From Bacteroidota bacterium (lineage in GTDB: Bacteria; Bacteroidota; Bacteroidia; Chitinophagales; Chitinophagaceae), in the NCBI GenBank assembly GCA_030706735.1, contig JAUZNZ010000003.1, forward strand, positions 150,651 through 214,650: 64,000 nt of DNA, given 5' to 3'. A model generated the notes under the pieces. The model saw nothing but the letters and a program-made list of their open reading frames with translations, was not told where the DNA came from and searched no databases. This document shows, one piece after another, positions 49,987 to 64,000 of this stretch. The stretch's first letter is position 1. The number at the start of each line of letters is the position of its first letter. The translations under genes and the position numbers were made by a program.

Positions 49987-50574
49987 ATGAAAAGCGCGCT
50001 GCTCCTTTCCTTCGTCACCACGGCCTTTCTTTCTTCAAGAGCCCAGACCGGACAAGCCCCATTCAGATCCGCCGCTGTACCCGGCCTGCCGGGCGTCATT
50101 GAGGCCGTACTGCATGATTTTCCGGAAAACCTCAGGCACCTCACCGGCGAATTGCTGACGGCTCAGGGCGGGTCGGAGAATTATTCCTCGACGGTCATGC
50201 CGCCGGGCGCAGAGAGCTGCACCATTACCCGCTTCCTTTCAACCGGCGATACGACGGCTGCCTGGCAGGCCAGGATGTACAGCAGTGAAGATTTCGAAAA
50301 GGCATCGACGGCCTATCGCGACTTGTACAGACAGCTGCAATCCTGCTATCTGCTGCTGCCCGACAGCAGCATGATCCCGCTGAAAGGGCGTTGGGAGCCG
50401 GCCCGTCAGGACATGTCCTTTACCACCAGTACGCTACGCCTCAATACCGGCGATGAGCGTTACAGGGAGGTCGCGATCGATCTGGAACTCTTATCGCAGG
50501 TTACCGGGTGGGTGGTGAATATCAATATCGTAAGTAAGCGTCCGGACGACGAGATAGGCATCCGGGCTCAATAA
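49987..50574 (+). CDS. Exported protein of unknown function
   Basis: I do not recognise this 195-residue protein. It has a signal peptide (MKSALLLSFVTTAFLSSRAQ) and no membrane segments. The body is mixed alpha/beta, with CTITRFLSTGDTTAAWQARM, FEKASTAYRDLYRQLQSCYL and TSTLRLNTGDERYREVAIDLEL. The start is the first ATG with a signal peptide; the frame itself extends upstream on the other side of the cupin gene. Its stop overlaps the end of the convergent SDR gene by 7 bases. Confidence 0.7.
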   Translation: MKSALLLSFVTTAFLSSRAQTGQAPFRSAAVPGLPGVIEAVLHDFPENLRHLTGELLTAQGGSENYSSTVMPPGAESCTITRFLSTGDTTAAWQARMYSSEDFEKASTAYRDLYRQLQSCYLLLPDSSMIPLKGRWEPARQDMSFTTSTLRLNTGDERYREVAIDLELLSQVTGWVVNINIVSKRPDDEIGIRAQ

Positions 50575-51356
50575 GGCGCCTGAATCGCTCCGCCATCGAC
50601 CTGTATGGTCGTGCCAGTAATATAACCCGCGAGAGGAGAGGAGAGAAAAGCGACCAGCGCCCCCAACTCCCCAGGCTCACCGATCCTTCGCAAGGGAATG
50701 GTCTTTGCCCTCGCTGCAAGCAATTCCTGAAGGTTTTCGCCGGCCGCGATCTGCGGCGCGACGGTGTCCTTGATCCGGTCGGTCAGGAGGAGCCCCGGCG
50801 CAACATTATTCACCGTAATGCGGAAAGGTCCCAGCTCATTGGAGAGGATCTTGGCCATACCGACCACGCCCATGCGCATACTCGTGGATAATACCGAATT
50901 CTCCAGGGAGGTCTTTACCGACAGGCTCACGATATTGATGATCCGCCCGCTGCCGGCCTTCTTCATATGCGGGATCACCAGGCGGCTGCACCGCACTACA
51001 CTCAGAAGGTTCAGGTCGAAGGCCGCCTGCCAGGCCTGGTCATCGAAGGAATCGAAAGGGCCGAACGGGGGACCTCCGGCATTATTGACCAGGATGTCGA
51101 TTCGCCCATATCCTTGCAGGGCAGCGGCTACGATCCGTTCCATACCGGCCGGATCATTGACGTCCATCGGGACTGCGATGACGCGGCCACCACCCAAAGA
51201 TCGGATTTCAGCGGCCGCTTCTTCCAGGGTCTTCGGGTCGCGCGCGCCGATCACTACATCCGCGCCCTCCGCTGCCAGCGCCCGGGCGCTGGCTTTTCCG
51301 AGTCCCTTGCTGGCTGCCAGCACGATCGCCGTTTTTCCGCGCAACTGAAGATCCAT
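50568..51356 (-). CDS. SDR-family oxidoreductase with divergent active site (BKR-like)
   Basis: A 262-residue SDR. The cofactor motif is IVLAASKGLGKASARAL, slightly unlike TGxxxGIG; NNAGGPP and GYITGTTIQVDGGAIQ fit. The position of YxxxK reads VLSTSMRMGVVGMAK, so the catalytic Tyr and Lys are absent. A known SDR subgroup (BKR_like_SDR_like) also lacks the perfect tetrad. It is the last gene of the minus-strand run, 11 bases after the ATP-grasp-like gene, so it may act in that pathway. Confidence 0.88.
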   Translation of the reverse strand: MDLQLRGKTAIVLAASKGLGKASARALAAEGADVVIGARDPKTLEEAAAEIRSLGGGRVIAVPMDVNDPAGMERIVAAALQGYGRIDILVNNAGGPPFGPFDSFDDQAWQAAFDLNLLSVVRCSRLVIPHMKKAGSGRIINIVSLSVKTSLENSVLSTSMRMGVVGMAKILSNELGPFRITVNNVAPGLLLTDRIKDTVAPQIAAGENLQELLAARAKTIPLRRIGEPGELGALVAFLSSPLAGYITGTTIQVDGGAIQAPY

Positions 51357-51367
51357 GAGCGATTGTT

Positions 51368-52579
51368 TTACGATTTTTCAAAATAGCATACGCTGCCGCC
51401 CACCCATTCCCGGTCCTTGTTATAGCGAACGCCGATCATCTTGCCCTTACTGAGACGGGCCAGGTTGATGGCCAGCCGGGGCCTGGGATCCTCATCCTTC
51501 CATAGGTACATCATGCGGATCTCCACCTTGGCCGGAATATCCGGTGTGGGAATAAGTTCAGCATAGCGCACCTTCCGCTGCAGGATCCAATTGGCGGGGT
51601 CCCCCACCTTTTCCAGGTCCGAAGGGGTCACGTCGATCACTACGCCCTGACCGGCAAAAGAGAACAGCGGCTTCAACACGTAGTTTTCAAGATCTTCGGG
51701 GGGTTGCTTGATCTCATTCAAAAAGAAGGTTTGCGGCACGTACGGATGGCGGATGAACGGCAGCGTGTATTTACTGATCCGGTAGAACCAGTTGGGGTGG
51801 GGGACCCATTCCACATCCAACGCATGCCGGATATCGACGGATCCGCGAGCGCCTCCGGCGTCTCTCCCCGAGGCATGCAGTTCATCGAAGATCACTCTGT
51901 TGTAGATCCGCCTGATCTCCGTGCGCTTGCCGGTTCCGGCATGGATATAGTAAAGTTTTTTTCCTTCCTGGATGAGCTCGGTCAGGCATACCGGCTGGAT
52001 GCCCAGGTAATCCTGCGTGCAATAAAAATCGATGCGCGTCTTTTGCTCATTCGGCTTCAATTCAAGCAGGATCACATTTTCCGGAGGCAGGCCCCCCAGG
52101 ATCACCTGCCTGAATTCGGCCAGGTAACTTTCACGGTCAAAGCCACCGAGATATTGGCTGAAATTTTCCGGGATCGTAAAATGCCGGCGCAGCAGATCGG
52201 GATAGTAGACCTGAAAGCCATATAGGCTGGGGAACCCCTGCATTTCGATCAACTGGGGCTCCAGACCGCCTGCCGCGTTCCTGCATACGCCGAAGTCGAA
52301 AACCAGGAGTTGCGGATGCCCTTCTTTCCCGGCTACCCGGTCCGCTGCGGGAATAGAGCGCTCGGTCCACGTTGAAAAATCCGGTTCGAGGATGAGGTCG
52401 ATCATGCGTTCGCAGGTATCGCTCAGCATCAACGCGAATTCCTTCGGCACGAAGACGGGCGTTTCCGCGATCCGGAATTCTATGGCGCCTGGATGAAGGC
52501 TGTGCAGGTCTCTTAAGAATGCCTCGTACCGATCCGTGGAGAAGGCCTCATTGAACGCTTTCCGTAAAGCAGGTACCAT
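51368..52579 (-). CDS. ATP-grasp-like enzyme of unknown function
   Basis: A 403-residue protein, start chosen at 52579 (MVPALRKAFNEAF) because the region before it looks non-conserved; an ATG at 52663 would overlap the amidotransferase by 23 bases. The stretches VFDFGVCRNAAGGLEPQLIE, IQPVCLTELIQEGKKLYYI, NYVLKPLFSFAGQGVVIDV and WILQRKVRYAELIPT resemble the ATP-binding lysines and strands of circularly permuted ATP-grasp ligases such as glutathionylspermidine synthase-like enzymes. This is pattern-based, not certain. Being next to a class I amidotransferase suggests amide or peptide formation. Confidence 0.55.
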   Translation of the reverse strand: MVPALRKAFNEAFSTDRYEAFLRDLHSLHPGAIEFRIAETPVFVPKEFALMLSDTCERMIDLILEPDFSTWTERSIPAADRVAGKEGHPQLLVFDFGVCRNAAGGLEPQLIEMQGFPSLYGFQVYYPDLLRRHFTIPENFSQYLGGFDRESYLAEFRQVILGGLPPENVILLELKPNEQKTRIDFYCTQDYLGIQPVCLTELIQEGKKLYYIHAGTGKRTEIRRIYNRVIFDELHASGRDAGGARGSVDIRHALDVEWVPHPNWFYRISKYTLPFIRHPYVPQTFFLNEIKQPPEDLENYVLKPLFSFAGQGVVIDVTPSDLEKVGDPANWILQRKVRYAELIPTPDIPAKVEIRMMYLWKDEDPRPRLAINLARLSKGKMIGVRYNKDREWVGGSVCYFEKS

Positions 52580-52640
52580 TCCATTCCATGTTTGAGGGAA
52601 GTTACCGATTTTTTGGGTTCGACCGCTGACGTACGCGCAT

Positions 52641-53483
52641 TCAACTGACTGACGTGCGCGCATGCCCGCTCACAACCGGAGCCAGTGCAGCGTCGAGAAA
52701 ATTCGGTATGACATGGGAATAGGTCCACCGGATCTTTTCCGGGTCATCCAGCTGCTCGATCATACTCCGCCATTTCTCTTCCCCGAATTCCGCGACAACC
52801 GTCCTCTTCCTTTCCTCGTTTTGAAGATGGATGCTCATCCCCACCGCATCCGCTTCCGGATGAAATTGGGTCCCGATCATGTTGTCGGAGAACCGGATGG
52901 CCATGACGGCCCTTTCAAGCGGGACGTGCGGCCGCTCCTTCTCGATGGCCAGTACCTGTGCCCCAAGTTGCCGGAGCCGTTCCGCGTCGGGACGAATGAC
53001 CTGGTAATCGCGGCTGTCGACGGCAAAGAACGGATCCCGAAGACCGGAAAATACCGGTTCATTCATGCCCTCCTGCTCGAGATGGATGGGGAATACGCCG
53101 AATGCGGTGGATTTTCTGCGGGTAATGTCCGCCAACTCAAAATAGCGGCAAGCCAGCTGAAAGGAATGGCAGATGAAAAGGACCTGCCTTTTCTCACGCT
53201 CCGCGCCCCGTAACCAGGCGAAATAGGCCGCCTCCCAGGCGCTCGTTTCCGATGCCAGGGGACTGCCGGGGCCTCCGCTGGAAATATATACGTCATAAGA
53301 GAGGTCGGGCACCCTGTGCTCGACGCGGACCTCGTACTCGTCCGTCTCCATCTCCATCTCGTGAATGTCTGCGTATTGCTGCAGGATCTCGCGCAGGCAG
53401 CGCATGCCCTGATTGGGGTGGCCTGCATACAGGTCGAGGATCGCCACCCGAATTGCCCGATGCCGGAGTAGTTGGTTAGTCAT
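52641..53483 (-). CDS. Class I glutamine amidotransferase
   Basis: A 280-residue protein; the ATG at 53483 (MTNQLLRHRAIRVAILDLY) is chosen over an earlier frame overlapping the regulator. The triglutamyl-type GATase domain has the nucleophile in FICHSFQLAC (Cys105) and the HPE motif GTQFHPEADA (His208, Glu210), so glutaminase activity is plausible. The oxyanion region SSGGPGSPLA is also present. It likely hydrolyses glutamine to give ammonia to a partner ligase; the ATP-grasp-like gene 61 bases downstream is the best candidate. Stand-alone GATases of this type can also be hydrolases of other gamma-glutamyl compounds. Confidence 0.9.
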   Translation of the reverse strand: MTNQLLRHRAIRVAILDLYAGHPNQGMRCLREILQQYADIHEMEMETDEYEVRVEHRVPDLSYDVYISSGGPGSPLASETSAWEAAYFAWLRGAEREKRQVLFICHSFQLACRYFELADITRRKSTAFGVFPIHLEQEGMNEPVFSGLRDPFFAVDSRDYQVIRPDAERLRQLGAQVLAIEKERPHVPLERAVMAIRFSDNMIGTQFHPEADAVGMSIHLQNEERKRTVVAEFGEEKWRSMIEQLDDPEKIRWTYSHVIPNFLDAALAPVVSGHARTSVS

Positions 53484-53494
53484 AGGGCACAAAG

Positions 53495-54238
53495 TTACGA
53501 ATTCCATTCAATGATCTGGTAGAAGTCGTCCTTGAAACTGTCCCCGATGGGAATGATCTTTTTCCCGATATAGATCTCGTTTCGGGCGATGGAGTCGATA
53601 TGAGTGAGGGAGACGATGTACGAGCGGTGCACCCGGATAAATTCGTCAGGCGGCAATTTGTGCGAAAAGGACTTCAGGTTGTTCAACGTCAGAATGGGAT
53701 CGGACTTGCCCTTTACATACACCTGGGTATAATCCTTCATCCCCTCGCAGAAGAGAATGTCTTCGAATTTGACCTTGATGATCTTGTACTCCGACTTGAT
53801 AAAGACAAATCGGTTATTGCGGGCATGGTGAATGTAGATGGTCGTAGACAAATGGTCCTTGATCTTATTGATCGTCTCCAGCCAGCGCTCGAAAGATAAT
53901 GGCCGGCTCAAATAACTGAAGACGTCCATTTCGGTCTCTTTTTTTTCCTGATCCTGCTTCCCGGTAATGCAAATGACGATCGGGTAGTACCCCGATTCCT
54001 TCAGGCGGACCAAGATCCGGTTGTCCAGCAGCCGGCTGTCCCAGAAAATGATATCGGCCCGGTACTGGATGACCAGGGGCATGAGATCCGCAGCGGATTC
54101 ACATTTTCCGACAAAATTGAGTGCAGGCGTCTTGGCGATATAGTCCCGGAGCAGGGCGCTCTGCTTGTTATCGTCTTCGGCGACGATGCAGTTCAACAAA
54201 CCGATTGCCGGAAAGCCTTTGCGATGGTGATTGGACAC
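53495..54238 (-). CDS. LytTR-type response regulator
   Basis: A 247-residue regulator. The REC domain (about 15-130) has acidic residues AEDD at 20-23 and Asp67 in DIIFWDSRLL, but the conserved Lys is replaced by Arg in YLSRPLSFERW. The LytTR DNA-binding domain (about 150-245) includes KVKFEDILFCEGMKDYTQVY and FIRVHRSYIVSL. There is no LytS-type kinase next to it. It ends 11 bases before the amidotransferase, so it is probably cotranscribed with it and with the outer-membrane genes upstream. Confidence 0.9.
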   Translation of the reverse strand: MSNHHRKGFPAIGLLNCIVAEDDNKQSALLRDYIAKTPALNFVGKCESAADLMPLVIQYRADIIFWDSRLLDNRILVRLKESGYYPIVICITGKQDQEKKETEMDVFSYLSRPLSFERWLETINKIKDHLSTTIYIHHARNNRFVFIKSEYKIIKVKFEDILFCEGMKDYTQVYVKGKSDPILTLNNLKSFSHKLPPDEFIRVHRSYIVSLTHIDSIARNEIYIGKKIIPIGDSFKDDFYQIIEWNS

Positions 54239-54297
54239 GAATGGAGAATTATGCTGGCACGAATGTAGGGGAAATCGGCCAATTCATCCCGGACAGC

Positions 54298-55590
54298 CTA
54301 GTCGTACTTACGGCCCTTGGTGTACAGGATATTGCCAAAATTGATCGCGAAAGTAATATTGACATATCGTTCCTGTACCAGGTTGACCGCCTGCGTGCCC
54401 CGTTCCCCATATTGCAACACGATGCTGTAGGCCAGCGGGCTCTTGAGCGAATTAACCCCGAAACCGGCAGTAACGCCCATGTCCCGGATAGGCTGGCCAT
54501 AAACCTGCAGGTAAGAAGTGCCATAGTATACCCCGGCCTGGAGATAGCTCAATTCCACCTTGGTATTAAAGACCACTTTCTTTTTGGAGACCTCGAAGCC
54601 GGCTGAAGCCCGCTGGCTGTTAACGAGGGCATAGCCCTTATTTACATAATTGAGTGAGCCCCAATCCTGGTATTTGTAGTCGGCAAGGAAGGTATATTTC
54701 TGATCCTTGGTAAGTGCCACCCCAAACCCATAGGCGAGGGGCATGGGCTGATAACTTCTGGATAGCGTTTCATCAGCAAGGGTGATCGAATCAGGTCCCA
54801 GCACGGTGCGCCGGGTCTCGGCAAAGAGATCCGTGCGCGGCGAGAAAGTGCCCCCCAGCGAATACTGCCATTTTTTCCCCAGGTTCCCGTATAACTGCAG
54901 ACCATAGGTCATATACAGGTTGCTGAGGTTGATATTATTGGTCGTCGAAACCAGGGTCGCCCCGGCAATGCTATTTTGCAGGATCTCCTTCTGGTTAAGC
55001 TGTCCGAATAAATAGCCCGCGTCAACGCCAAGAGAGAGGTGATGGAAGAATTCATAGGCATTCGCCCAATAAACCTTGTTTACGCTCCCATGCCCCTGAT
55101 AAAAGCCATTGGCGATCTGCGTGGTAGTGGCCGTCAGGATGGTAGGCACATTGAATTCATAGTTCTGCGTGCTGAACGGGACCAGCCCGATACTGGTGCC
55201 CCAATGCCTGGCGGCCTTGATGCCTATTGACAGCCTCCTGAATGTGATGTCGCCGGACTGGGTGCTGGACGGATCCACGGGCTGGCCGTAATAGTTGATG
55301 ATGCTGCCCCGGATGCCTAACTCCATGACCAGGTATTGATCGGTCAATGCGCTGAACGAAGCCGGATTATTGTTGATCAGGAATCGGTTGCTGCGATAGG
55401 CCTGTCCCGTATTCGCCAATCCGGTCGTACGGTTGTAATAGCCGTCGTCCAGGTCCCCGACGCCCAGTTGGGAATAGGGTGAAAAATTTCCCTGCGCCAT
55501 AGTCCTTACCGAGGAAAGCACCAGGATGCCGGCCATGATGATCAGCACGTGGATCCGGGGAAAGTCGATATGATGGTTTGGTCGGCTCAT
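54298..55590 (-). CDS. Outer-membrane beta-barrel protein, FadL/OmpP1-like in form
   Basis: A 430-residue protein with signal peptide (RIHVLIIMAGILVLSSVRT, cleavage near MAQ). The early segment SPYSQLGVGDLDDGYYNRTTGLANTG and NNNPASFSAL is like the start of OmpP1/FadL-type proteins, and strands such as YTFLADYKYQDWGSL and YVNITFAINFG end the barrel. In Bacteroidota such genes often sit beside a DUF4270 gene, as here (26-base gap). Substrate unknown. An internal ATG before MAGILVLSS is an alternative start. Confidence 0.8.
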   Translation of the reverse strand: MSRPNHHIDFPRIHVLIIMAGILVLSSVRTMAQGNFSPYSQLGVGDLDDGYYNRTTGLANTGQAYRSNRFLINNNPASFSALTDQYLVMELGIRGSIINYYGQPVDPSSTQSGDITFRRLSIGIKAARHWGTSIGLVPFSTQNYEFNVPTILTATTTQIANGFYQGHGSVNKVYWANAYEFFHHLSLGVDAGYLFGQLNQKEILQNSIAGATLVSTTNNINLSNLYMTYGLQLYGNLGKKWQYSLGGTFSPRTDLFAETRRTVLGPDSITLADETLSRSYQPMPLAYGFGVALTKDQKYTFLADYKYQDWGSLNYVNKGYALVNSQRASAGFEVSKKKVVFNTKVELSYLQAGVYYGTSYLQVYGQPIRDMGVTAGFGVNSLKSPLAYSIVLQYGERGTQAVNLVQERYVNITFAINFGNILYTKGRKYD

Positions 55591-55616
55591 GATACGTACC
55601 GGTTGCTCGTATTTAT

Positions 55617-57005
55617 TTATTGATGAGGGTACAGGGATATATAATACACGATCAGCGTAACCCGCTGCGACACCGGATAGGTGGCGTCGGCCAGCACCGC
55701 CCTGTTAAAGGTCGTTTCGCCGTCCGGGGGAGGCATGCTCAGCACCAGCCCGTTCTGACTGGCAGTCTGGGAACTGTTGACGATCTGGGCCTTCACGAAA
55801 CTGGTGATATCGTAACTATAGACGGTATTCTGCGGATTCAAATAATCGACGACAAGGTTGCCGTTCTGAATGCCTCCCGTGGTGCTGGAGGGCAACGGAG
55901 TGACGATCGAATTATAGAGGTCCGTGACATACAGGTTCAGGTTTGGCGGCAGTCTCCAGGTGGTCGAAAAGCTCCCGGGAACCGGTCTTACGATCAGTTG
56001 GGCCCTCAGAACCCCTATGTAATCGGGCCGTTGTGCAATGGCGTTCAGATTGGGAAAGGTGATCTTAACGTTGCTGCCCGTAATGCTTTGCACGTAGGCA
56101 TTGTTATTCGTCAGCGCAGACGGGGTGGTCGGCGGCGTTTGCAGGTATTGGGTGGGCAGGATCAGGTTCTTCATGGGGCTATTGCTCCGGTCGACCTTGA
56201 TATTATTGAATTGCATCGACTTATTGGTAATGTTGAAGTCGATGAATTTCTGTGACGTATAAGCGGACGCTTCATTATAGTAGATCCGCATGGTCGCGCT
56301 GTCCTTGAATCCATAGATCGCGCCGGTGCTGCCCGGCGCCGGCGAAATGCACAGACCATGGAACCAATTCAGCCAGTTGGTAGGCTTGATGATCGAATCG
56401 GAATTATCCTGGATCATCCGGTAGAGCAATTTGCCCAGGCTATCCGGCATCCTGATCTTGATGGAATCTCCGATGCCCTGGCTGGTATAGGGGATACTTG
56501 GATAAATGAGGGCGCTGCTGCTGCCCCAGGACGTCGGGCTTATCGGAAAGCTCGAATTGCTGAAGACCCCGCGCTGAAAGCTGGATAACTGATAAAGAGA
56601 ACTCACCTGGTTGATCATGAAGGATTGGCGCAGGGTGGTATCTCCATAATAGGGACTGCCTTTCTTATATTGAAGGATCAGCACGATCGAATCGTAAGAG
56701 TCGGAAGGCTGAAGTGCAGGGGGCTGCGGCGGCGGGAGTACCTGCAGGAATGCCCTGGAATTGATATTGCCAAAATAGCTGTCCGTGTAATTCCCCACGA
56801 GCAGATAGCCCGTGCCGGCAGTGGCCGTGGAGTCCAGATAAAGCGTGGACAGGCTTACCAGGCTGGTGTCCACCGCAACGATCGTGGCCCCATTATTATC
56901 GGGGAGGAAATTAGGCCCGAAGTTGAGGATGGGCTGTTTTTGGCAGCTCGCCAGGCCCAGACCGGCCAGTACAATGAAGAAAAACGGGTATATATATTTA
57001 GTCAT
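55617..57005 (-). CDS. DUF4270 lipoprotein
   Basis: A 462-residue protein with lipobox ASC (LAGLGLASCQKQ) after the signal. The start ATG 57005 is used; an extension to 57053 begins with weak sequence. NFGPNFLPDNNGATIVAVDT, GYLLVGNYTDSYFG and SYDSIVLILQYKKG belong to the DUF4270 type, found as surface-exposed or outer-membrane lipoproteins in Bacteroidota. First gene of the minus-strand run leading to the outer-membrane barrel and the regulator. Function unknown; linked to the Kelch/DUF4907 genes across the divergent gap. Confidence 0.85.
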   Translation of the reverse strand: MTKYIYPFFFIVLAGLGLASCQKQPILNFGPNFLPDNNGATIVAVDTSLVSLSTLYLDSTATAGTGYLLVGNYTDSYFGNINSRAFLQVLPPPQPPALQPSDSYDSIVLILQYKKGSPYYGDTTLRQSFMINQVSSLYQLSSFQRGVFSNSSFPISPTSWGSSSALIYPSIPYTSQGIGDSIKIRMPDSLGKLLYRMIQDNSDSIIKPTNWLNWFHGLCISPAPGSTGAIYGFKDSATMRIYYNEASAYTSQKFIDFNITNKSMQFNNIKVDRSNSPMKNLILPTQYLQTPPTTPSALTNNNAYVQSITGSNVKITFPNLNAIAQRPDYIGVLRAQLIVRPVPGSFSTTWRLPPNLNLYVTDLYNSIVTPLPSSTTGGIQNGNLVVDYLNPQNTVYSYDITSFVKAQIVNSSQTASQNGLVLSMPPPDGETTFNRAVLADATYPVSQRVTLIVYYISLYPHQ

Positions 57006-57384
57006 CTCGCAGATAGTCCAATTTAGCCAGTCTTTTTTCAAGAATTTGTGCAATAATAAGGGGCCTAACTGTTACTATTTTGTTAGTATGTATTAGTGAC
57101 AACAATAAAACGACCAACAGACGCTTTTTATATACTAATGGAGGACTGGGGGAGCCTTTGGACAACCCGTTCTCCGGGTGGGTAAAAAAGGGCTTTCTCG
57201 TTCTTTTTCAGGCAAATGTACGGATCGGAAAGTGCGCGGACCGGAGAGAATAGCGAAAAAACGAAGCGCTTGCTTTATTTGTCTATGAAAAAAGCCGGGT
57301 TGTCTATTAATAACCCGTGGAAATACATTTTAACGATTTTGCTAAGGTGACTTCAAATACATTAGCGAAAAATTTCAATAAAAT
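57006..57384. other. Divergent intergenic region between DUF4270 and Kelch genes
   Basis: Holds no ORF. Two small stems are seen, ACCCG/CGGGT near 57165-57180 and CGGGTT/AACCCG near 57297-57318. On the minus strand a TAnnTTTG match (57220-57213) could be the DUF4270 promoter, with a leader of about 200 bases. The plus-strand promoter was not recognised. Confidence 0.35.
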
Positions 57385-58494
57385 ATGAAGCGGATTAATA
57401 CTGCGTTGCTCTTACTGTTGTCGCTGGGAGTCCTATTTTCTTGTTCCAAAGCTAGCCTGGATTACACACAAAACGGAAACTGGGTTTCCCGCGCCATTTT
57501 TAAAGGGGTACCCATGGCCTATGGGGCTTCCTTCGTAGTAGACAATATCGCCTATGTCGGCACGGGGTATAATCCCACCACGCCAAACACACGTTTGGCG
57601 TCCATGTTCAAATACACACCCTCCCCGATCAATACCTCGGCTCCCACAGGATACGATAGCGCCTATGGCGGATGGAGCCAGGTGGCCGATTTTGCAGGAG
57701 GCGGTAGAAGCAATGCCGTAGGTTTTTCAATTGGCGCCCTTGGCTATCTCGGATCCGGAACGCCGGACGGATTTACGCCGCTGAGCGACTTTTATTCCTA
57801 TAATCCCACGGCCAACCAGTGGACGAAGATCGACAACATGGGCACCGGAGGGCAGGTATTTCCCCGCGTGGACGCCGTTTCATTCAGCTTTGACACGACG
57901 GGATATGTGCTTACCGGGACCGACTATAATTATTACTTCGGCGATGTCTGGAAATATAGCCCGGCAACCGGCCATTGGAGCCAGGAGACGGACATGCCCG
58001 GTTCCAAAAGATCCCAGGCCGCGACCTGGATGTACAAGGGCAATGGCTATCTGCTGACCGGCTTCACGCCCGGATCGCAGTGGACGGCCGGTGGAAATGC
58101 CTGTTACGATTTCTGGAAATTCAATCCGGCTACCCACATCTGGACCCGGCTTCGCGATATCTATAATACCAACGCCTCCCAGACCTACGATGACGGATAC
58201 ACGAATATCGTACGCTATCATGCCGCTGCCTTTACGATCCTCGGCACGGCCAGTGGGGACAAAGGGTATATCACGACCGGCGCCAACGGCGTCCCCTATA
58301 ATTATACCTGGGAGTATGATTTCGCTACGGACCTGTGGACGCAAAAAACACCCTACGAGGGATCCGCAAGACAAGGCGCGGTCGGCTTCACCGTCTTGAA
58401 CCGGGGGTTCGTCACCACGGGCATCAGCGGCTCCACGGCCAATGACGACACCCGGGAATTCTTCCCCAACCAGATCTATAATCAGTATGACTAA
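57385..58494 (+). CDS. Kelch-repeat lipoprotein
   Basis: A 369-residue protein with lipobox LFSC (LLLLLSLGVLFSCSK). The rest is Kelch repeats, each with the form YSYNPTANQWTKIDNM, KYSPATGHWSQETDMPG and GYLLTGFT, making a beta-propeller of about 5-6 blades. It is anchored outside the cytoplasm. In Bacteroidota such Kelch lipoproteins are commonly linked to DUF4270 and DUF4907 genes. It overlaps the next gene by 8 bases, so the two are coupled. Confidence 0.88.
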   Translation: MKRINTALLLLLSLGVLFSCSKASLDYTQNGNWVSRAIFKGVPMAYGASFVVDNIAYVGTGYNPTTPNTRLASMFKYTPSPINTSAPTGYDSAYGGWSQVADFAGGGRSNAVGFSIGALGYLGSGTPDGFTPLSDFYSYNPTANQWTKIDNMGTGGQVFPRVDAVSFSFDTTGYVLTGTDYNYYFGDVWKYSPATGHWSQETDMPGSKRSQAATWMYKGNGYLLTGFTPGSQWTAGGNACYDFWKFNPATHIWTRLRDIYNTNASQTYDDGYTNIVRYHAAAFTILGTASGDKGYITTGANGVPYNYTWEYDFATDLWTQKTPYEGSARQGAVGFTVLNRGFVTTGISGSTANDDTREFFPNQIYNQYD

Positions 58495-58873
58495 CGGGAG
58501 ATCCCGCGTCCCAAACCAATGGATCTATACGACACTCATCCTGCTGGCGGCAGCGGCACTGGTCTATGTCAATTTGCACCGTAAGGCCGCGGCGGCTAAG
58601 GACCAGGTACATCTGGAACTCAAACCCATTCAGGTGAATGAAGGATGGGGTTACCTGATCCTCCAGGACGATCACGTGTTCATCCGTCAAACGATCATTC
58701 CGGCCATTCAGGGTGCACATCCCTTCCGGACCCGTGAGGATGCCATGGCCGTCGGTCAAAAAGTCTTTGACCGGTTGTCCGCGGGACAAATGCCCATAGT
58801 GACCGTTGCAGAACTGAAAGCCATGGGCATACGGCCCGATTCGTCACGGCATGATTCCGTTCAAAGAAAATAA
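58487..58873 (+). CDS. DUF4907 membrane-anchored protein
   Basis: A 128-residue protein; the ATG at 58487 overlaps the Kelch stop. One N-terminal membrane helix (WIYTTLILLAAAALVYVNL) is followed by the DUF4907 pattern GWGYLILQDDHVFIRQTIIP, AIQGAHPF, REDAMAVGQKVFDRL and PIVTVAELKAMGI. DUF4907 proteins have no known function but are constant partners of the Kelch lipoproteins. A strong terminator follows 35 bases after the stop. Confidence 0.85.
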   Translation: MTNGRSRVPNQWIYTTLILLAAAALVYVNLHRKAAAAKDQVHLELKPIQVNEGWGYLILQDDHVFIRQTIIPAIQGAHPFRTREDAMAVGQKVFDRLSAGQMPIVTVAELKAMGIRPDSSRHDSVQRK

Positions 58874-58908
58874 ATTTCCTATACCGATACAGCTGACTAT
58901 TTTTACCG

Positions 58909-58929
58909 ACCCCCGGACGTTCCGGGGGT
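58909..58929 (+). terminator. Terminator after the Kelch-DUF4907 pair
   Basis: Arms ACCCCCGGA and TCCGGGGGT enclose CGT and are followed by a T-rich tail (TTATT...). It separates the pair from the M1 peptidase gene 25 bases later. Confidence 0.85.
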
Positions 58930-58953
58930 TTATTAATCATTCATTTTTGAACC

Positions 58954-61554
58954 ATGAGCAAGATCTCAGTCATCCTCCTGTTATTCATCGCGCCGGCAAT
59001 CCAGGGCCTCGCTCAATCGACCGAAGCCGCTCATTTCGACCAGCACGCGGCATTCAACCCTTTTTTCTATCCATCCAACGGCACGGTTTACCGGAGCGCT
59101 GGAGGAGCGCCGGGCGCGAAATACTGGAATAATAAGGCGGATTACCGGATTAACGCTACCCTGGATACGGCCGCGCACGCACTGAGCGGGTCGGTCACGA
59201 TCAGCTATACCAATAACAGCCCCGATGACCTTCCCTTTCTCTGGCTGCAGCTCGATCAGAATATTTATCGCAAAGAGTCGCGCGGCGAATTGACCAGCCC
59301 GGTGACCGGCGGACGCTGGTCCAACAAAACCTTCACCGAAGGAGACGTGCTCCGGTCCGTGACCCTGATCCAAAACGGCCAGTCGGTCCGCGCGGATTAT
59401 CTGGTTAGCGACACGCGCATGCAGATCAGGCTGCCGGAAGCGCTGAAGGCCGGCGGAGGCGCTCTGCAGATAAGGATCGATTATTCGTTCGATATCCCTG
59501 AATATGGTACCGACCGCATGGGACGTCAACTGACCGGCAACGGGTGGATCTATGAAATGGCGCAGTGGTATCCCAGGATGGAAGTGTATGACGATGTGTA
59601 TGGCTGGAACCTGCTTCCCTACCTCGGGGCGGGCGAGTTCTACCTGGAATACGGAAATATCGACTATACGATCACCGCGCCGTCGAATCTCGTGGTGGTC
59701 GGCTCGGGGGAATTGCTGAATCCCTCGGAAGTGCTGACGGCGACGCAGCTATCCCGGTTGGCGAAGGCCAGGACGAGCGATAAGACCGTGTTCATCCGTA
59801 CGCAGGATGAGGTGACGGATCCGGCATCCCATCTGCCGCGCAAGAGCCTGACCTGGCATTTTCACTGCAATCAGACCAGGGATGTGGCCTGGGCGGCATC
59901 CAGGGCCTTTATCTGGGATGCGGCAAGGATCAACCTCCCGAGCGGAAAGAAGGCGCTTGCGCAGTCCGTTTATCCTGTCGAAAGCGCCGGGCGCGCTGCC
60001 TGGGGCCGTTCCACAGAGTTTGTGAAGGGATGTATCGAGCTCTACTCGAAAGAATGGTACGAATACACCTACCCGGTGGCGACCGATGTGGCCGGCAACG
60101 TGAACGGCATGGAATACCCCGGGATCGTGTTCTGTGGCGGAAATAGTCGCGAGGGTCAACTATGGGACGTAGCGAACCACGAGTTCGGACACAACTGGTT
60201 CCCCATGATCGTAGGCTCCAATGAAAGGAAATACGCCTGGATGGATGAAGGTTTCAATACGTTCATCAACGGCGTCGATACCCGGGTCTTTAATAACGGG
60301 GAGTTCGACCAGAAACAGGACCAGCAAAGGCAGGCGAAGTTCCTGTTCAACCCCGGTTCCGAACCGATCCTGACGCAGCCTGACGTCCTGACCGCAAATA
60401 ACCTGGGAACGGCAGCCTATGCCAAACCGGCGCTCGCCCTCGACTTGCTCAGAAAATATGTATTGGGAGAAAAACGGTTCGACTACGCATTCCGGACCTA
60501 CATCAAGCGATGGGCGTTCAAACATCCGACGCCATGGGATTTCTTCCGCACAATGGAAAATGCATCAGGTGAAGACCTCGGCTGGTTCTGGCGCGGCTGG
60601 ATCCTCAATAACTGGAAACTGGATCAAAGTGTCAAAGGCGTCAGGTACGCGAATGGCGATACCGCCAGCGGCGCATTCATCACCCTGGAGAACCTGCAGG
60701 AGATGGCCATGCCCGTCGCACTCGCCATCCAACAGCAAAATGGCCATACGGACACCGTTATCCTCCCGGCCGAAGTTTGGGAGAAAGGATCGCCCTATAC
60801 CTTCCATTTTGCGTCCACCTCCGCCATCAGGTCCGTCGTGATCGATCCGGAGCACGATTTTCCGGACATCGACCCGTCAAATAATACCTGGACCGGCGTA
60901 TCCCCCGTCAAGCCCGTCCCTGCCGGCGTGTCGGCGACCGGGGTCATCGACAATTACCTGAAGGTGATCGGCGGCCGGCCGGCTCTCGAAGCGGTAAAGG
61001 ACATGACGATCGTTTCCGGCGGCGAGGTGCAGGGCCAGCGCGTCGTACAAACGCAGAAATTTGCAAGCCCTGGGACATTCGTCATGGAACTGGCTGCACC
61101 CGATATCAACGTAACGGCGATCAAGCTGCTCGTGAACGGGGACAGCGTAAAGGTCGTGCAGATGGGGCAAACCCCTCCGCTGGACGAGGATACCCGCAAT
61201 GAACTGCGGGACGGCGCCCGGATGTTCCCCGAACTGGCATTTTCCGGAAGCGGTTATAAACTGGATCTGACCAGCATCAGAAATCTTGATGGAAAGGACG
61301 CCTACGAGGTCAAAGTGACGCACGGCGGCACTACCGTCCTGTATTATTACGACATCCACACCGGCTACCGGATCAGAACGGTCCGTACAAACAAGGAGGG
61401 CGCTGCAAATGCTACGGATTATGACGACTACCGCGACGTCAATGGCATCAAAATACCCTATAAGGTTTCCGCAGATGAAGGACAATTCATCCTCTCCCTG
61501 ACGGTACAAAGTGTCAAGCTCAATGGAGGATTGACGGACGCAGACTTCAAATGA
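58954..61554 (+). CDS. M1-family metallopeptidase (exported)
   Basis: An 866-residue secreted peptidase with signal peptide ([20 protein letters not shown]). It has the aminopeptidase-N-like N-terminal domain ([20 protein letters not shown]), the zinc site [20 protein letters not shown] followed by the second Glu in WMDEGFNTF, and a C-terminal part with a further unrecognised domain (about 660-866). The GAMEN-type motif is replaced by NGMEYPG, which is common in this subgroup. Expected activity: aminopeptidase in the periplasm or surface. It ends at a 10-base tandem repeat and converges with the ligase gene. Confidence 0.92.
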
Positions 61555-61572
61555 CTTCAAATGACTTCAAAT
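61543..61572. repeat. Three tandem copies of a 10-base unit between convergent genes
   Basis: GACTTCAAAT is repeated at 61543-61552, 61553-61562 and 61563-61572. The first copy encodes the end of the peptidase (its TGA is at 61552-61554); the ligase stop (complement at 61567-61569) lies in the last. Only 12 bases separate the two genes. Confidence 0.9.
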
Positions 61573-62682
61573 GACGCCGTGGAGGAACTGATCGTGGATA
61601 TAATCCACTACGCTGGTCAGGCTGCCTGATTGCTCATAAACTTTCAGCTGGCGATCCGCCCCGGTGCCCTTTTCCAGGATGCTGGCGACATGACCGGTGG
61701 CATGACGGCTCCCCAGGGGATCGACCACGTCATCGACGAAGTCAAGCAGCTCGTAGATCAGCACGCGGGTATTCACTTCTTCTTCCTTTCCGAAGTCGAT
61801 CAGCCTCCCGTCGATGCCATAGCGGCTGGCCCGCCACTTATTCTCATTGATCAGCGCGCGGGAATATTGGATGTAGTTCATATTCCGCAAACGCAGTTTA
61901 TAGATCTTCACGCAGATGGCCTGAAAAAGGGCCGCGATGCACATCGTCTCCTCTACCGTCATCGGCACATCGCAGATGCGGAACTCCACCGTATTGAAGA
62001 ACGGATGTACCCGGAGATCCCACCAGATCTTCTTCGCATTATCGATGCAATTGGTCTTTACCAGCAGCTTGACGAAATTGTCATAGGCTTCGATGCTCTC
62101 GAAATATTCGGGAATACCGGTCCGCGGGAATTTGTCGAAGACCTTGGTACGAAACGACTTATACCCGGTCACACGGCCCTCCCAAAAAGGAGAGTTGGTG
62201 CTGAGCGCATAGATATGCGGCAGGAAATAACGGGTCGAGTTGGCAATATGATTGGCCATCTCCCGGCTTTCCATGCCGACATGAACGTGCAGGCCGAAGA
62301 TCAGATTGCTGCGCGCGGCCTCCTGCAACTCGTTCACGATCTCGCTGTACCTGGCATGATCGGTGATGAGCTGGCTTTCCCAATGGCTGAAAGGATGCGT
62401 GCCTGATGCGCCGACCCAAAGGCCCAGGTCTCCGGCAATCTTCGATATGGTCTTGCGCAGGGTAGATACATCCTTATGAGCCTCCTCGATGTTGCGGCAA
62501 ATGTCCGTTCCGACCTCCACTACGGCCTGGTGCATTTCCGCCTTGACCTTATCGCGGATGATCTTCTGGCCCTCCGTGACGATCTTTTGTTCATGGCTCT
62601 TTAATTCCCTGCTGGCGGGATCCACGACCATGTATTCTTCTTCCACCCCGAGGGTAAAATTGTTGTAATTGATATCGGCCAT
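61567..62682 (-). CDS. Carboxylate-amine ligase, YbdK/GCS2 type
   Basis: A 371-residue enzyme of the glutamate-cysteine ligase 2 fold. Signatures are FTLGVEEEYMVVDPASREL (catalytic acidic loop), WVGASGTHPFSHW, HVHVGMESREMANHIANSTR, HIYALSTNSPFWEGRVTG, and WWDLRVHPFFNTVEFRICD. In other bacteria YbdK has weak gamma-glutamylcysteine ligase activity; many relatives make other gamma-amides. It is last in a minus-strand trio, 14 bases after an ATP-grasp gene, so it probably contributes one amide bond to a small product. Confidence 0.92.
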   Translation of the reverse strand: MADINYNNFTLGVEEEYMVVDPASRELKSHEQKIVTEGQKIIRDKVKAEMHQAVVEVGTDICRNIEEAHKDVSTLRKTISKIAGDLGLWVGASGTHPFSHWESQLITDHARYSEIVNELQEAARSNLIFGLHVHVGMESREMANHIANSTRYFLPHIYALSTNSPFWEGRVTGYKSFRTKVFDKFPRTGIPEYFESIEAYDNFVKLLVKTNCIDNAKKIWWDLRVHPFFNTVEFRICDVPMTVEETMCIAALFQAICVKIYKLRLRNMNYIQYSRALINENKWRASRYGIDGRLIDFGKEEEVNTRVLIYELLDFVDDVVDPLGSRHATGHVASILEKGTGADRQLKVYEQSGSLTSVVDYIHDQFLHGVI

Positions 62683-62696
62683 GCTGGTTCTTTTTT

Positions 62697-63650
62697 TTAT
62701 GCGAATAGGAACTTGCCCGCCCCGCTCCGTACATACTCTCCCCAGGTCAGGTTGTCCTCTCCCTCCCGGTTGGACAGCGCACGCTCGATCGCATATTCGG
62801 CCGCCGTGTCGACGACCCAGTTGAAATTATCTTCCCCTACGCTGCTGCACTCGGCATCCGGAGCGGGATTGCAGAAGTCGATCGCATAAGGGACCCCGTC
62901 GCGCACGGCCAGTTCCACCGTATTGAAATCGTAGCCCAGCAACCGGTTTATGCTGATCACGATCTCCTCCATCTGTCGCAGCCGTTCGTCCGAAGGGGCG
63001 AAATCGGCTGAATAACGCAGGTGATGCGGATTGCGCGGCTCGTAGGACATGATGCGCACATATTTGCCGCCGATGCAATAGCATCGGTAGTATTCGGAAA
63101 ACACGATCTCCTCCTGCAGCAGCATGACCAACTGTCCCGTCTCGCTGTGCTTCCGGAAGAAATCTTCCTTATCGTGCAGCTTATATACATGCTTCCATCC
63201 CCCGCCCGCGAACGGCTTCATATAGGCCGGAAAACCGGTGTATCCGAAGATCCCGTCCCAGTCGAGGGGATAGGTCAGGTTCGAAAAGGACTGATCGCTC
63301 GTGTCGGCGGGCAGATCATGGGAAGGCAGGATGACCGTCTTGGGGACCGGCACGCCGCTGCGCACCGCCAGGCAATTGTTGAAGAACTTCTCGTCCGCAC
63401 TCCACCAGAACGGATTATTGATCACCGCGGTACCGCAAAGGGCCGCGTTCTTCAGGTAGGCCCGATAGAACGGAACGTCCTGTGAGATACGGTCGATGAT
63501 CACATCATACCCGCTGGGAACCCCCTGCATCACTTTGTCGATGCGTACCGGGGAGGCGACCACGTTGCCGTTGCTCTTGCGGTTGACGGCTTCGATAAAG
63601 GCCATGGGAAAGCTCCGCTCCTGTCCGAAAAGAATCCCTATTTTTTTCAT
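62697..63650 (-). CDS. RimK-like ATP-grasp ligase
   Basis: A 317-residue ATP-grasp enzyme, MKKIGILFGQERSFPMAF at the start. The ATP-grasp core includes DGIFGYTGFPAYMKPFAGGG (phosphate loop and ATP-binding Lys), LLQEEIVFSEYYRCY, and YDFNTVELAVRDGVPYAIDF followed by CNPAPD (metal-binding Glu/Asn-like positions). Such enzymes join a carboxylate to an amine using ATP. It is flanked by an esterase and a GCS2-type ligase on the same strand with 12- and 14-base gaps, so an operon and a shared product are likely. Confidence 0.88.
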   Translation of the reverse strand: MKKIGILFGQERSFPMAFIEAVNRKSNGNVVASPVRIDKVMQGVPSGYDVIIDRISQDVPFYRAYLKNAALCGTAVINNPFWWSADEKFFNNCLAVRSGVPVPKTVILPSHDLPADTSDQSFSNLTYPLDWDGIFGYTGFPAYMKPFAGGGWKHVYKLHDKEDFFRKHSETGQLVMLLQEEIVFSEYYRCYCIGGKYVRIMSYEPRNPHHLRYSADFAPSDERLRQMEEIVISINRLLGYDFNTVELAVRDGVPYAIDFCNPAPDAECSSVGEDNFNWVVDTAAEYAIERALSNREGEDNLTWGEYVRSGAGKFLFA

Positions 63651-63662
63651 GATCCATGATTT

Positions 63663-64000
63663 TCAATTCAGGGGCAATAACGACAAATAATGCGGGAACA
63701 TCTCCTTCCATACCGGCCAGTCATGCGTCCGGTCCGGACGTATATCCAGCCAGTGGCTGATATGTTTCCTGGTCAAAATGCCGCTCAGCAATTCGTTCTG
63801 CGGCTTGCAGCTGTCTGCATCGGCCGTGCCCAATACGATGCCCATCTTCCAGAGGTCGGGATCATGAGCGTCCGGTAGGTAGTCCACGGGATTATTGTAA
63901 TAGACGGCGTCATCGTAGTAACCATCGACGAAGGAACGGATGTCGAATACGCCGCTCATGGAAAAGCAATAGGCGGTTAGCGCAGGGTGCCGGAAGGCGA
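63663..64000 (-). CDS. Esterase-like alpha/beta hydrolase, C-terminal part (gene continues beyond the window)
   Basis: The frame is open to the window edge; the visible C-terminal 112 or so residues include RHPALTAYCFSMSGVFDIR and VYYNNPVDYLP, typical of the putative esterase family (PF00756) just after its nucleophile. DSCKPQNELLSGIL and the final RTHDWPVWKEMFP probably carry the acid and the His of the triad. Only 12 bases separate it from the ATP-grasp gene. Esterase-ATP-grasp-GCS2 trios occur elsewhere in Bacteroidota. Substrate unknown. Confidence 0.8.
   Translation of the reverse strand, partial: AFRHPALTAYCFSMSGVFDIRSFVDGYYDDAVYYNNPVDYLPDAHDPDLWKMGIVLGTADADSCKPQNELLSGILTRKHISHWLDIRPDRTHDWPVWKEMFPHYLSLLPLN

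Follow-up and report, generated by a model that had tools for sequence, protein, structure and literature searches.

Three predicted ligases that co-occur across the Bacteroidota and may build an amine-capped peptide

The DNA analyzed here (the window) is a stretch of 64,000 nucleotides from a member of the Chitinophagaceae, Bacteroidota bacterium (GCA_030706735.1, contig JAUZNZ010000003.1, positions 150,651 to 214,650), which ends in three minus-strand genes. In the order of transcription these are E1, an esterase (alpha/beta hydrolase; 63663..64000) of which the C-terminal 111 residues are present because the contig end cuts the gene; AGR (62697..63650), an ATP-grasp ligase of 317 amino acids with a modelled RimK fold; and GCS (61567..62682), a GCS2/YbdK-type carboxylate-amine ligase of 371 amino acids. 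The operon that a sequence-only reading of the window had proposed for them, with gaps of 12 and 14 bases, is confirmed. Clustering of the neighbors in related loci led to two further minus-strand genes, located approximately 8 kb from GCS: GAT (52641..53507), coding for a class-I glutamine amidotransferase-like protein, and C6 (51368..52579), coding for a third ligase of 403 amino acids, a modelled glutathione-synthetase/YgiC-fold ATP-grasp enzyme. The start of the latter was set at a conserved MVP; the listed open reading frame (ORF) extends to 52663. The same reading had treated esterase, AGR and GCS as the unit; AGR and GCS stand as members, and C6 and GAT, elsewhere in the window, belong with them.

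The window ends with its contig, inside E1. A search of the same genome placed the start of E1, together with a second esterase gene (E2), at the end of contig C46. Because the ends of contigs C24 and C46 share 141 identical bases inside E1, the interruption is most simply an assembly break, and the two contigs are very likely neighbors. E2 is divergent from E1, and the resulting layout (E2<- ->E1-AGR-GCS) is the same as that of the related locus L031.

GCS scores above the cut-offs of PF04107 (199.8 against 21), PRK13515 (524.3 against 371) and TIGR02050 (299.3 against 176.4), which identifies it as a YbdK-type (GCS2) protein, and it matches YbdK (1r8g) with an E value of 2e-48. It falls below the cut-offs of the YbdK equivalog PRK13516 (242.5 against 425) and the cyanobacterial gshA equivalog (58.6 against 249.05). 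AGR reaches 29.1 bits with the NCBIfam RimK model TIGR00768, the cut-off being 143.4; its structure model has the RimK-like ATP-grasp fold, the nearest folds being RimK, LysX and ArgX, with RpsF and LysW complexes among the matches listed. The suggestion that two different amide-forming enzymes share one operon is borne out. Membership of AGR in the R2K clade was considered and rejected: its close relative in L031 scores 14.0 bits against 26.2 with R2K_2 and 12.8 against 26.3 with R2K_3, both under the cut-offs. Alignment reveals that residues K145, E246, D258 and N261 of AGR, which we take to be ATP-grasp residues, are invariant.

The structure model of C6 has a YgiC/glutathionylspermidine synthase-like fold over the whole chain. 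No solved structure was matched significantly when searched with the C6 sequence (best E 0.18, to YgiC), and the PF03738-type score of its relative in L031 is 11.7 against a cut-off of 29.3. GAT matches PF00117 at 34.1 bits against 22.8, and C102, H205 and E207, presumably a Cys-His-Glu triad, are invariant in 13 of 13 aligned rows. The nucleophile Ser of E1 is kept in 14 of 15 rows, a count from which one row of more than 300 residues had been dropped beforehand and which covers loci where the gene caller recognized the gene. The invariant residues of AGR, GAT and E1 are consistent with working enzymes. The E1 protein of locus L154 has lost both the nucleophile Ser and the His; E1 is therefore perhaps not always an enzyme, and this copy is possibly a non-enzymatic relative.

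In a sample of 395 Bacteroidota genomes (171 genera after collapsing) AGR was found in 133, GCS in 128, C6 in 113 and GAT in 85. All three ligases are present in 104 genomes (69 genera), scattered cases included, and all four genes in 63. AGR shares 109 genomes with C6 and 113 with GCS, while C6 and GCS share 108; for each of these pairs Fisher's p per genome is below 1e-59. GAT is accompanied by AGR in 83 of 85 genomes, and one genome (G431) possesses GAT only. At the genus level AGR and C6 are shared by 73 genera, with 16 having AGR only and none C6 only (p 6e-33); the shared counts are 69 for C6 and GCS (p 2e-32), 73 for AGR and GCS (p 5e-26), and 57 for AGR and GAT (p 5e-21).

Physical linkage is looser than co-occurrence. 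AGR and GCS lie within 6 kb of each other in 70 of the 113 genomes with both genes; the other 43 have them farther apart or on separate contigs, at least one of these cases (G289) being a contig break. The sequence-only reading had named genes scattered in relatives as evidence against itself, and such scattering is partly what was found, with both genes kept. In several families (e.g., f38, f40, f44) the genes are apart in the sampled genomes and the set is still retained. That AGR and GCS are kept together even in scattered genomes argues for one pathway, not against it.

The neighborhoods of GCS were compared in 80 close loci, the best 80 of at least 589 by GCS similarity, mostly from Chitinophagaceae genera or Bacteroidetes. 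In all 80, AGR precedes GCS on the same strand, with more than 300 bases between the matches in 12. GAT occurs in 34 and C6 in 31, all within the 64 loci that have at least 9 kb downstream of GCS; both are inverted in L100 and L102. Complete sets of the three ligases plus GAT are present in L038 and L052, from Niastella and Flavihumibacter. In three genomes from other families of the order GAT follows GCS, L026 reads E1-AGR-GCS-GAT, and L025 has E1, AGR, GCS, GAT and C6 all together. Among 40 loci from other families picked by AGR, the contiguous order E1-AGR-GCS-GAT-C6 recurs in five (L146-L150), and E1 is upstream of AGR in 17. The esterase E1, which had been counted as a member of the operon, is a variable element, present in just 7 of the 80 close loci, and the divergent E2 is found in 76, the remaining four being loci where AGR starts within 140 bases of the locus start. 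An ORF cluster (e.g., L047:9315-9935) is seen between AGR and GCS in 11 of the 80, the one member tested being Uma2-like (PF05685).

Sixteen genomes in nine families carry AGR and GAT without C6. The single locus sampled from each of these nine families has a circularly permuted ATP-grasp-like gene after AGR, in place of GCS and C6; none of the other 31 sampled loci has it. This replacement ligase sits between AGR and GAT in eight of the loci; for L178, the ninth, GAT is found on a separate contig. Compared with PF14403 and PF04174, two full-length replacement ligases score at best 29.1 against 32 and 20.8 against 23.1, just under cut-off, and a trimmed one 21 against 23.1. Profile comparison with C6 gave a probability of 6%, so that homology of the two is not demonstrated. 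A relative of M29 peptidases occupies the position of GAT in four loci (L156, L164, L170, L174; 63.5 against 27 with PF02073 in the one tested), and genome searches found no GAT in the corresponding genomes. A role for GAT as supplier of ammonia to C6 was set lower, since four sampled families have C6 and the M29 peptidase with no GAT found in their genomes; it is also weakened by G039, where GCS and C6 adjoin and no GAT was found. GCS and C6 adjoin in L154 as well, the genome of which (G069) carries GAT on another contig.

GCS, AGR and C6, along with GAT, very probably belong to one pathway. The likeliest reading, to which we assign a probability of about 0.5, is a single non-ribosomal pathway in which the three ligases would act in turn, linking more amino acids to a gamma-glutamyl-type unit and yielding an amine-capped peptide; a small-peptide pathway, as the sequence-only reading had it, is plausible. 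From the observed genes, their order, co-occurrence and invariant residues, and from the modelled folds of AGR and C6, we infer the following enzyme steps. The first amide would come from GCS, which would activate a carboxylate. AGR would then extend the chain by a residue, in the manner of RimK, LysX and ArgX, and C6, if it works like the peptide-spermidine ligases YgiC and YjfC, would attach an amine, perhaps a polyamine. The product or intermediates may be cut or recycled by GAT or, where this is replaced, by the M29 peptidase, and the esterases E1 and E2 may trim or release the product. An amine-capped peptide as the product is an even call, and the combination of a polyamine as the amine with a gamma-glutamyl start is offered tentatively.

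Glutathionylspermidine and trypanothione are synthesized by a pathway of GshA, GshB and Gss. The present set would resemble that route in combining a GCS with a second peptide ligase and with a GSS/Gss-fold ligase whose step ends on an amine; it differs in that the GCS is of the GCS2 type and not GshA, the second ligase has the RimK fold and not that of GshB, and the hosts carry bshC. The Escherichia coli enzymes YgiC and YjfC, reportedly characterized as peptide-spermidine ligases by Pederick et al. in 2023, are 13-14% identical to C6, which reaches no family cut-off, and ygiC and yjfC are not known to accompany GCS and AGR as C6 does. RimK, LysX and ArgX show 14-18% identity to AGR, which lies far below the NCBIfam RimK cut-off. 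Amidoligase neighborhoods in which GCS2 and ATP-grasp enzymes are linked were reportedly described in general terms by Iyer et al. in 2009; the link to C6 and GAT, the phyletic counts and the slot replacements come from the present analysis. The E-64 pathway is fungal and begins with epoxysuccinate, with Cp1B (9cjn) as one ligase; its second ligase is an ANL-family enzyme, not an ATP-grasp or GCS2 protein (PMC12568646).

Several observations weigh against the three-ligase pathway to an amine-capped peptide. The substrates, product and step order of GCS, AGR and C6 are a proposal, predicted from the genes. C6 of the window has no match above cut-off to PF03738 or any other curated sequence family, and amine capping is one guess among several, since enzymes of glutathione and E-64 synthesis share the C6 fold. 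No correlation with the ligase trio is seen for gamma-glutamyl transpeptidase (28 of 40 genomes with the trio, 23 of 40 without; p 0.35). The members are separable: AGR occurs without GCS in 20 and without C6 in 24 of 133 genomes, the latter comprising the 16 of the replacement lineages and eight that also lack GAT, and C6 occurs without AGR in four (G182, G192, G258, G356) and without GCS in five of 113 genomes. Family f17 has AGR, GAT and C6 in four genomes without GCS, and some replacement-ligase genomes (e.g., f37, f58) still carry an unlinked GCS. In G192 the run GCS-GAT-C6 is present; neither AGR nor E1 lies in the stretch read (20 kb of a 21.6 kb contig), and the genome as a whole gives no AGR match at E 1e-10. 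GCS is found without AGR in 15 genomes; 11 of them, with E values of 1e-102 or weaker, may represent another subfamily. In L024, one of the three loci from other families of the order, there is no AGR within 1.5 kb upstream of GCS. Shared ancestry, moreover, still inflates the co-occurrence statistics, even when these are computed per genus.

This last point leads to the explanation that no pathway is shared at all, and that neighbors with separate functions were co-inherited from common ancestors. The phyletic counts are indeed not independent and some genomes possess AGR but not the others; co-inheritance is nevertheless improbable, considering that the genes co-occur even when unlinked, that functional replacements occupy the same operon slot, and that, among the genomes listed for family f20, seven have GCS, GAT and C6 (six of them also AGR) and 12 have none. 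A different view is that AGR extends the carboxylate of a protein, as RimK does on ribosomal protein S6, and C6 ends the chain. The nearest folds to AGR (RimK, LysX, ArgX) act on proteins or carrier proteins, and for another ATP-grasp clade a role in ligating peptides to proteins has been predicted in a survey (PMC4431377). Such protein tagging is unlikely, given that no recurrent target or carrier-protein gene appeared in the clustered neighborhoods, that the substrates of characterized relatives with the C6 fold are small molecules or peptides (PMC12568646), and that scattered genes, which also occur, agree with a diffusible product.

GCS might instead make gamma-glutamylcysteine for a glutathione-like low-molecular-weight thiol, as the name of its family (glutamate-cysteine ligase family 2) and the glutathione synthetase fold of the C6 model would allow. 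This too is improbable: GCS scores above the cut-offs of PRK13515 and of the YbdK subfamily model but below that of the cyanobacterial gshA equivalog, and bshC occurs both in the genome of the window and in 79 of 80 genomes sampled, namely 39 of the 40 that have the trio and all 40 of those that lack it. The trio is therefore no substitute for bacillithiol, and replacement of bacillithiol by its product was rejected; a second thiol would be conceivable. The BshC match is in two pieces in G139, G230 and G332, with internal stop codons in the last. Cyclization of a genetically encoded precursor by AGR, as in graspetides, is highly improbable, the genes being scattered in many genomes and no precursor having been seen when 1332 small ORFs surrounding AGR were clustered over 80 loci. 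By eye, the eight clusters shared most widely look like tails or antisense frames of larger neighbors, and this candidate (a ribosomally synthesized and post-translationally modified peptide) was rejected.

The occurrence of three predicted ligases together in 69 genera suggests that a conserved small molecule exists in a large phylum, and the enzymes offer a way to trace it. In line with the sequence-only reading, which knew of no characterized product, no description of this gene set or its product was found among the papers that searches of open-licence PubMed Central listed, judged by titles and the starts of abstracts. Gene families that mostly go by the names hypothetical protein, ATP-grasp enzyme or carboxylate-amine ligase would gain roles from the pathway preferred here, and the physiological role of YbdK-like and YgiC-like enzymes becomes open to direct testing. 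In its fullest form, which is doubtful, about a quarter of Bacteroidota species would have, besides bacillithiol, a cofactor similar to trypanothione or glutathionylspermidine: a gamma-glutamyl peptide, amine-capped and so far undescribed. As part of the same doubtful proposal, this cofactor would be built by GCS2, RimK-fold and YgiC-fold peptide-amine ligases, with an amidohydrolase or M29 peptidase dedicated to its turnover.

A block of several genes (54298-61554), among them one for an M1-peptidase-like protein (PF01433), stands between GCS and GAT in the window, as it does in the nearest relatives. Several relatives have an amidase (PF01425) and an amidohydrolase (PF07969) between GCS and GAT (e.g., L040:11230-14547); the two clusters (c14 and c9) comprise nine and 12 loci, and one member of each was tested. 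A gene for a LytTR response regulator (53495..54238, minus strand) overlaps the start of GAT by 13 bases and is a possible regulator; it is present in five of the 80 close loci, one of these being a 28% match elsewhere in its locus, and adjoins GAT in only a few of the close relatives. An Rfam scan of 50000-64000 gave nothing at gathering scores. Between 51000 and 64000 there are 17 promoter-like sites, compared with 9.3 (standard deviation 2.6) in shuffled sequences, and 16 terminator-like sites, compared with 11.3 (standard deviation 3.5).
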